A DNA stretch of 37,124 bases from Actinomycetes bacterium (GTDB lineage: Bacteria > Actinomycetota > Acidimicrobiia > Acidimicrobiales > Acidimicrobiaceae): the NCBI GenBank assembly GCA_021777475.1, contig JAJYDM010000014.1, positions 1-37,124 on the forward strand. Reading direction: 5' to 3'. Under the pieces are notes generated by a model that was not told where the DNA came from, ran no database searches, and saw only the letters and a list, made by a program, of their open reading frames with translations. Of this stretch, positions 32,488 to 34,814 are shown piece by piece (within the stretch, counting starts at the first letter, position 1; each line of letters starts with the position of its first letter). Both the position numbers and the translations under genes were made by a program.

Positions 32488-34104
32488 ATGTGGAATTATA
32501 CACCCGAAGTCTTCAGTGATGACGAACTTGAGGTTCTGTCGAGACACTTCACCAATGCCGACAAGCCGGTCTTTGCCCTAATAAACCTGCCTGAAGTGGT
32601 CAAGGGTGCGCTGTTTGCCCGCTACAGCAGATCACCGAAATCGCTACGAAGATTGTTCCTGGACGAGTTTTACCATGCTGATAACGATGCTTACGAAAGT
32701 GCCTCCGCGGTTGGGGTTGCAAGAGCGGAGGGACTTTATGAGCGCATGCTCGCCGACTACGGAGACGATTCCGTTGCTCAGTTGGGTGGCGTTCATTTGG
32801 CTTGTGAACAGGCTTCGAACATACTGACGAAAGTTCTTGAACGCGGCCGCATCATGGCCTATTTGGAGCAATCGACCCGTTACATTCCCTATAACAAGCC
32901 ATTGGCTGACGGGAACTACAGGTATTTGGTTCCCAATGAAATTGCCGGGGCGGGTCTCGAGCAAGATTATCGAAGTGAAATGGATTCGCTTTTTGCCGGC
33001 TACTTAGAGATTTTCGATGAGGTTGAGGCTCGTCTGCGCGCAACAACTACTAAAGATCCTGATGATTCCGATTCAGTTTTCAACTCTTCTATACGCGCAG
33101 TGGCGCTCGACACGGCACGCGGGATACTTCCGGCGTCAGTTCTCTCAAATGTCGGAATATTTGCCTCTGCACAGGCCTACGAGGCCTTGATTCTTCGAAT
33201 GCGGGCTTCGGAGTTGAATGAGGTACGCCAGTACGGGGAACTTATTAGGGCCGAGTTGGATAAGGTGATACCGGCTTTTCTGACAAGGGTGGACCGGCCA
33301 GATCGTGGAGGTATATGGGTTGATTACCTTGCCTCCAGAAATACTGTGCCAGCAGGTACGCCAAGACCCGTTTCTTCGGGAGGGCGCAGTATCGATGATG
33401 GAGAGGACGTCGCCGTTCGGCTGATTTCATTTGATCCGGCTGGTGAGAGGAAGATAGCTGCTTCGGTGCTTTTTTCGCAGTCTCCCGTTTCAATGGAAGA
33501 GGCCATAGAGACAGCCAATTCGCTTAGCGACGGCGAACTTCGAATGTTGATAGCGAATTACGTTGGAAATCGGCAGAACAGGAGGCACAAACCTGGCCGT
33601 GCATTCGAGGAGACGGGCTACCTTTTCGAGATTGAGTGTGACTACGGCGCCTTCCGGGATCTCCAGCGCCACAGAATGCTAAGCATAGAATGGCAGGTTC
33701 TCGGTACGTCACTAGGATATGTTGTTCCTGAACTTGTTCATGACTTTGGGCTCAAAGAGAGATTTCAGAACATCATGGATAGGTCGAGGGGTTTTCATGA
33801 AAGGCTGCAACAGGCAGTTGGGCCCAAGGTAGGTGCATATGCGGTGCCGATGGCCTATCGCGTTAGATTCACCATGAATTTGAACGCACGGGAGGCCCTG
33901 CACATGATAGAGCTTCGGACGTCCCCACAGGGACATAGTTCATATAGGAAGGTTGCCCAGAGGATGTACAGCTGTATTGACAGCGTGGCGAATCATCGAA
34001 GCGTTGCGGCCGCGATGAGTTTTGTCGACTTCGGCAACTATCGTCTGGGGCGATTGTCGTCTTTGCGTCAGGAAGAAAGCAAGAATCAGAGAATTTCCAG
34101 CTAA
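32488..34104 (+). CDS. Double-domain ThyX-like protein (FAD-dependent thymidylate synthase family)
   Basis: About 538 residues in two ThyX-like halves. Half one has GDDSVAQLGGVHLACEQAS and RGRIMAYLEQSTRY (119-132); half two has QRHRMLSIEWQ (RHRMLS at 394-399) and YRVRFTMNLNAREALHMIEL. Classical ThyX carries RHRxxSxNxxSxR in one chain and makes dTMP using FAD and methylene-THF. Here RHRxxS survives only in half two and SxRY only in half one, so a composite site, a changed activity or a non-catalytic role are all possible. ATG 32488 is preferred because MWNYTPEVF looks like a natural start; the frame opens at TTG 32410. Confidence 0.85.
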   Translation: MWNYTPEVFSDDELEVLSRHFTNADKPVFALINLPEVVKGALFARYSRSPKSLRRLFLDEFYHADNDAYESASAVGVARAEGLYERMLADYGDDSVAQLGGVHLACEQASNILTKVLERGRIMAYLEQSTRYIPYNKPLADGNYRYLVPNEIAGAGLEQDYRSEMDSLFAGYLEIFDEVEARLRATTTKDPDDSDSVFNSSIRAVALDTARGILPASVLSNVGIFASAQAYEALILRMRASELNEVRQYGELIRAELDKVIPAFLTRVDRPDRGGIWVDYLASRNTVPAGTPRPVSSGGRSIDDGEDVAVRLISFDPAGERKIAASVLFSQSPVSMEEAIETANSLSDGELRMLIANYVGNRQNRRHKPGRAFEETGYLFEIECDYGAFRDLQRHRMLSIEWQVLGTSLGYVVPELVHDFGLKERFQNIMDRSRGFHERLQQAVGPKVGAYAVPMAYRVRFTMNLNAREALHMIELRTSPQGHSSYRKVAQRMYSCIDSVANHRSVAAAMSFVDFGNYRLGRLSSLRQEESKNQRISS

Positions 34105-34241: not shown

Positions 34242-34814
34242 ATGGCAGACCATTTGGATGAGAAATTTGAAGGTGACGAAGAGCCGTTCGACGACGAAGA
34301 GGCGTTCGACGAGGTTGACTTGGATGTCGAAGATGTCGAAGATGTCGAAGACGTCGAAGATGCTGAAGATGAAGTAGGTCTTGAGTTTGAAGAGTTCCCA
34401 GGCGAGGACTTCGTGGAAGATCTTGACACGGATTTCGATGACGATGACGATATTTTGGTCGACGATCTTGACGTGCATGACGACATAGACGAGATTCTGG
34501 AGGCTGGCGCGATACTGGAGCCCAAGCCTGTAGTGCCTCGCGGCGACGACGAGGACGAGGACGAGGACGACGACGAGGACGAGGACGATGTTGAAGCCAG
34601 TCTTGATGATATTCTCAAGGAGCGGCTGGTAGTTCTAGAGGACGACGACGAGGACGATGACGAGGATTACGAAGACTCTGACTACAGGAACGATATCGCT
34701 CTTCGTGTCCTGCCAAAGCAGCCGGATGAATTCGTATGTCAGAGTTGCTTCTTGGTTAAAAACCGAAGCCAGATTGCAGATAAAGAGAAGATGTTTTGCC
34801 GAGATTGCGTTTAG
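34242..34814 (+). CDS. Extremely acidic DUF4193-type zinc-ribbon-like protein
   Basis: 190 residues. The C-terminal ~40 match DUF4193: LRVLPKQPDEFVCQSCFLV, then FCRDCV, giving two CxxC pairs that could hold zinc. Other DUF4193 proteins are small (about 100 residues) and of unknown function. Here about 140 residues of Asp/Glu-rich low complexity precede the domain, including five consecutive (D)VE/AE units and runs of D and E. The gene is separated from its neighbours by normal intergenic distances. The acidic tail may mimic nucleic acid or bind basic proteins or metals; that is speculation. Confidence 0.85.
   Translation: MADHLDEKFEGDEEPFDDEEAFDEVDLDVEDVEDVEDVEDAEDEVGLEFEEFPGEDFVEDLDTDFDDDDDILVDDLDVHDDIDEILEAGAILEPKPVVPRGDDEDEDEDDDEDEDDVEASLDDILKERLVVLEDDDEDDDEDYEDSDYRNDIALRVLPKQPDEFVCQSCFLVKNRSQIADKEKMFCRDCV
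34323..34367 (+). repeat. Nine-base tandem repeat in the acidic gene
   Basis: Five 9-base units, GATGTCGAA three times, then GACGTCGAA and GATGCTGAA, encode DVE x4 and DAE. A second GAC/GAG run lies at about 34542-34590. Such arrays can change length in frame. Confidence 0.85.

Follow-up and report, generated by a model that had tools for sequence, protein, structure and literature searches.

A gene at positions 32488-34104 (+) of the window, by which we mean the whole 37,124-nucleotide stretch of DNA analyzed here, encodes a protein with two ThyX domains in one chain. This protein is very probably a flavin-dependent thymidylate synthase in which two copies of ThyX were joined and then specialized, so that together they build a composite site and act as the predicted source of dTMP. 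The reading frame opens with an ATG and encodes 538 amino acids followed by a stop codon; the start Met is supported by relatives of the same genus, which begin at the same Met (MWxY). When the two halves were scanned separately, PF02511 (Thy1) was found twice, with E 1.6e-16 in half 1 and E 1.3e-19 in half 2. Both matches exceeded the cut-off (128.4 bits in all, against 24.8), and the Pfam scan of the 538-residue protein returned nothing else of weight besides Thy1 and no match to PF00303 (ThyA). The NCBIfam ThyX equivalog model TIGR02170, which is not built for a double, diverged chain, scored the chain at 66.1 bits, short of its 87.9-bit cut-off. The function of the gene is explained by none of its neighbors, which encode TatC, a Ski2-like helicase with a DSHCT domain, an acidic DUF4193 protein and a GNAT acetyltransferase. 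In the DUF4193 protein (34242-34814) a long Asp/Glu-rich stretch is followed by a C-terminal CxxC...CxxC pair, and the reverse strand at the same positions holds a 153-residue serine-rich ORF that is probably spurious.

The Thy1 domain of half 1 spans residues 24-270 (32557-33297, +) and was aligned to the M. tuberculosis ThyX (3gwc) across profile positions 81-265. It contains the distal part of the ThyX motif at residues 119-135, RGRIMAYLEQSTRYIPY (32842-32892, +), in which S129, R131 and Y132 correspond to S88, R90 and Y91 of T. maritima (Tm) ThyX, and, further along, R211 (33118-33120, +), the equivalent of Tm R147 in the ARxxLP motif. A variable linker at residues 271-305 (33298-33402, +), which has the lowest pLDDT block of the structural model (54), leads into the Thy1 domain of half 2 at residues 306-515 (33403-34032, +), whose predicted fold resembles that of T. 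maritima ThyX. Half 2 carries the proximal part of the motif, QRHRMLS (residues 393-399; 33664-33684, +), with R394, H395 and R396 equivalent to Tm R78, H79 and R80, and a NARxxxHxxxLR stretch (residues 466-477; 33883-33918, +), in which R477 and R468 are the counterparts of Tm R174 and R165. The contiguous RHRxxSxNxxSxR motif is absent from any one domain, its proximal part lying in half 2 and its distal part in half 1.

An alignment of 106 bacterial with 30 viral fusions was used to tabulate the known ThyX residues in T. maritima numbering; hhalign against 11 standard ThyX sequences and HMMER against the M. tuberculosis, H. pylori and T. maritima chains served to check the mapping. Identity between bacterial and phage members of this 136-fusion alignment ranged from 17.7 to 57.7%, with a median of 23.3%. 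In half 2, R394, H395 and R396 were each present in 136/136 sequences and R477 in 135/136, the remaining one having a gap. Half 1 held E127, S129, R131 and R211 (Tm E86, S88, R90 and R147) each in 136/136, and Y132 in 133/136. The RHR position of half 1 is occupied mostly by W/R-G-R in bacteria and mostly by unrelated letters in phages. In half 2, W402 replaces E86 in bacteria and the positions of S88, R90, Y91 and R147 are variable, with an Arg at the R147 position retained in 8 phages. Bacterial half 1 keeps R121 (equivalent to R80) and usually R237 (near R174), so that what has been lost there is R78-H79 and not everything. Once both halves are counted together, R78, R174, E86, S88, R90 and R147 are all present. 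Kept in 106 bacterial and 30 viral fusions, the split is neither chance nor sequencing error. The initial annotation had described the motif as split between the halves, and this is confirmed across the 136 fusions, with RGRIMAYLEQSTRY (residues 119-132) in half 1 and QRHRMLS in half 2; the parts of the motif that it named were right, and its list was incomplete in that the split extends to R174 and R147, beyond the named motif.

Standard ThyX is a homotetramer with sites formed between three subunits; this D2 enzyme has four sites, and each of its subunits takes on all the roles. In the complex of M. tuberculosis ThyX with FdUMP, subunit A contributes Arg95 and Arg199, and subunit C contributes Ser105, Arg107 and Tyr108 (PMC6514825). 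PolB, a UMP/dUMP methylase with the ThyX fold (4p5b), divides its substrate site between subunits in the same way, Arg82 and Arg193 coming from one monomer and Glu94', Ser96', Arg98' and Arg166' from its neighbor (PMC5003785); it differs from the fusion in being a single-domain homotetramer that methylates UMP. Expressed in T. maritima numbering, the subunit partition of R78 and R174 versus E86, S88, R90 and R147 is that of half 2 versus half 1. Because the residue sets match the two-subunit division of one dUMP site, each pair of half 1 and half 2 most likely forms a single composite site, which would leave a dimer with two live sites and two dead ones. Had nine residues each been retained in a half at random, the probability of a clean split, whichever way round, would be 2/512, a figure that serves as an illustration and not as a test, since the nine residues are functionally linked.

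Direct comparison of the protein with PDB sequences gave weak results (E at least 0.07), and matches were obtained with the profile. A single-chain AlphaFold2 model computed from an 80-sequence alignment reached a pLDDT of 88.8 and a pTM of 0.88; a model from the single sequence (pLDDT 34) was discarded. Residues 302-517 of the retained model matched T. maritima ThyX with Z ~16.7 and an rmsd of 2.4-2.5 Å over ~193 residues, and strands and helices follow in the same order in both halves; the rows of the structure alignment (VIA-align) cover half 2 only, and the fold of half 1 is assigned from profiles and the secondary structure of the model. We propose that two fused chains would pair and mimic the four-subunit ThyX, giving a pseudo-tetramer with two complete sites that would catalyze the reaction dUMP + CH2-THF + NADPH -> dTMP. 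On the half 2 side of a live site, the residues equivalent to R78, H79, R80 and R174 would hold the flavin and the dUMP base, while those equivalent to S88, R90, Y91 and R147 on the half 1 side would hold the phosphate and close the lid. The pseudo-tetramer's two remaining sites would have lost catalysis, since they would need the half-1 RHR for the flavin and the half-2 S-x-R for the phosphate, both of which are gone.

T55 and R165 of ThyX are FAD-phosphate contacts contributed by subunit B. Considered as a third criterion for sorting the residues, this pair behaves differently in phages and bacteria: in phages it sorts to half 1 (S in 29/30, R in 26/30), and in bacteria it is divided between the halves, with S95 in half 1 and with R371 and R468 fixed in half 2. 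R468, the equivalent of Tm R165, occurs in 106/106 bacterial fusions and not in the phages. Half 2 has further fixed residues of its own, R362, R390 and D391. Two conserved stretches were also seen. Outside the known ThyX motif, half 1 has FARYSRS at residues 43-49 (32614-32634), in which Y46, S47 and R48 are present in 134-136 of the 136 fusions, phages included. In half 2, YVGxRxNRRHKPGRAFE at residues 358-374 (33559-33609) is near-invariant in bacteria but not in most phages, and both groups share R362 and P369; this stretch is possibly a phosphate or folate contact. The two presumably abandoned sites of the bacterial proteins still hold fixed residues, among them R121, S95 and Q229 in half 1 and R371 and R468 in half 2. 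It is conceivable, if rather doubtful, that these sites have been repurposed, for example to bind a nucleotide or folate allosterically, in an obligate asymmetric pseudo-tetramer, and that a class built in this way is the sole dTMP source in several phyla.

In its own genome (2.28 Mb, 96% complete, 139 contigs) ThyA or another Thy1/ThyX was looked for and not found, and neither DHFR nor thymidine kinase was found there. The fusion appears to be the only thymidylate synthase recognizable in this genome, with the qualification that genes are missing from metagenome-assembled genomes and that a non-homologous synthase is conceivable. None of 40 related genomes has ThyA or a separate ThyX, every Thy1 match in them being the fusion or a piece of it; in one relative, G030, the fusion is matched a second time, in part. 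We also sampled 118 genomes of the phylum with at least 95% completeness. The fusion is present in 34 of these, with a separate ThyX in 0/34 and a ThyA match in one (G177), where it is a 110-residue fragment. Among the 84 genomes without the fusion, a separate Thy1 was found in 53, a ThyA match in 34 and both in 6. In 39 fusion genomes from several phyla, reached through the species-genome scan described below, one had a ThyA match, one a strong single ThyX and one more a weak, broken match. FolA is often absent from ThyX users, as ThyX returns THF and not DHF (compare PMC1971073). DHFR was found in 0/25 fusion genomes and thymidine kinase was absent from 16/25, that of the window included, as expected of ThyX users. 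Judged by this genome content, the fusion would be the cell's source of dTMP, and much of Acidimicrobiia, together with members of other phyla, likely has no other. The initial annotation named a standard synthase at another locus as evidence against the fusion acting as a rebuilt ThyX; such a gene was looked for in the genome and not found, and the reading stands. The related suggestion that the fusion rebuilds one asymmetric site is likewise well supported, both by residues that match the ThyX/PolB subunit split and by its being the only recognizable synthase in the genome and its relatives.

The fusion was matched in 39 of the 40 related genomes, which span 17 families of the order, a few of the matches being pieces at contig edges; the sole negative relative is a genome of 82% completeness. 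When 84,980 species genomes were scanned, at least 562 relatives turned up; the depositors' record titles for the 80 that were kept mention Acidimicrobiia, other Actinomycetota, Chloroflexota/Dehalococcoidia, Acidobacteria, Rokuibacteriota and Deltaproteobacteria. Viral contigs contained 28 fusion loci with identity down to ~22% when searched with the alignment; the scan with the single protein as query gave no match. The phages Tunturi_5 and Microcystis MaMV/LMM01 have one fusion each. In Tunturi_5, a 309-kb phage of Tunturiibacter, the split double ThyX lies directly behind a dCMP deaminase gene (L113, 441-3033), and by their predicted functions the two genes would form a small dTMP pathway. 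A maximum-likelihood tree was built from 26 first and 26 second halves together with 11 standard ThyX sequences. In this tree, which is unrooted and based on short, diverged sequences, all first halves fell behind one branch and all second halves behind another, with support of 100/100 for each and with bacteria and phages together. The simplest reading is one duplication and one division of labor that predate the parting of bacterial and viral lineages.

We considered whether the ThyX fold might serve another flavin-dependent methylation, of UMP as in PolB or of a modified nucleotide, with dTMP supplied by an unrecognized enzyme. PolB shows that relatives of ThyX can change substrate (PMC5003785), the chain scores under the equivalog cut-off, and R362, R390 and D391 are fixed in half 2 alone. 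However, the dUMP-contact residues are collectively all retained, other ThyX is absent from 34/34 and ThyA from 33/34 of the fusion genomes in the phylum sample, and the genome of the window has no thymidine kinase; moreover, the Tunturi_5 gene adjoins one for a dCMP deaminase, which would supply dUMP. On this balance we regard a different methylation as unlikely. A new flavin-dependent activity, which the initial annotation had offered as an alternative, need not be invoked, and under it these genomes would have no known dTMP source. Considerably less probable still is that the two domains are half-degenerate and share no site, with one or both of them structural or regulatory after the loss of catalysis. 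Either half alone does lack essential residues, but the lost sets are complementary and not random, nine residues follow the subunit split, and both sets stay invariant at identities as low as 18%, which requires continued selection on both. An assembly error, or a fusion of two genes confined to this genome, for which the 139 contigs of the source genome might speak, is refuted by full-length fusions in the one-contig genomes G014, G025 and G029 and by the presence of the fusion at several hundred loci in several phyla.

The reading as a divided ThyX places the protein close to several known systems. It resembles ThyX (PF02511, TIGR02170; TM0449 and M. tuberculosis ThyX) in fold, pooled catalytic residues, genomic role and folA-negative setting. 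It differs from the standard enzyme in having two domains per chain and a divided catalytic set, each half lacking part of RHRxxSxNxxSxR, and in its score below the equivalog level. In most Chloroflexi the only ThyX is a domain-duplicated form, which has been called uncharacterized (Biol Direct 2009, PMC3224940). Likened by description, both forms are double and both are the only synthase in the genome, and our species-genome scan found Dehalococcoidia and Chloroflexota members of the fusion family; that paper gives no sequence analysis of the duplicated ThyX and does not describe a division of its site. A literature search within whose reach most subscription papers did not fall returned that paper as the single mention of a double ThyX, and no description of complementary ThyX halves. 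The thymidylate synthase of Microcystis phage LMM01/MaMV (phrog_36506) has the same split, with ERSTRY in the first half and RHR and LR in the second, and one such protein, A0A7D4, was a structure-search match over 533 columns. This synthase differs in its length of ~450-490 residues, its ~20% identity and its single Pfam-detected Thy1 stretch. The C. trachomatis ThyX CT632 (Griffin et al. 2005, cited in PMC8316439) may be a long protein of ~530 residues; it was reportedly shown to be active, and it is possibly of the same architecture. If CT632 belongs, the activity of the class has already been demonstrated and the novelty lies in the reading of the split only. Liu and Yang are said to have described distinctive ThyX motifs in Trichodesmium in 2004.

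Thy1-like proteins of ~300 residues in G087, G112 and G122 were ruled out as separated halves, as they carry a different, complete motif, THRxFSRNxxSSR. These proteins (L168 872-2000, L169 1080-1989 and L170 1104-2010; another occurs in G143) have THRxFSRNxxSSRA where ThyX has RHRxxSxNxxSxR, and each is the only Thy1 match of its genome, with no ThyA match listed for G087, G112, G122 or G143. They are possibly another divergent ThyX.

Most likely, the fusion represents a usual and essential job, as predicted from genome content, performed by an unusual and widespread variant of ThyX. Annotation with standard ThyX models would miss such a protein or flag its motif as missing. The site of ThyX, an antibiotic target, is formed between subunits, and the fusion amounts to a natural dissection of that site: it shows which residues each side has to contribute and allows one side to be mutated at a time.
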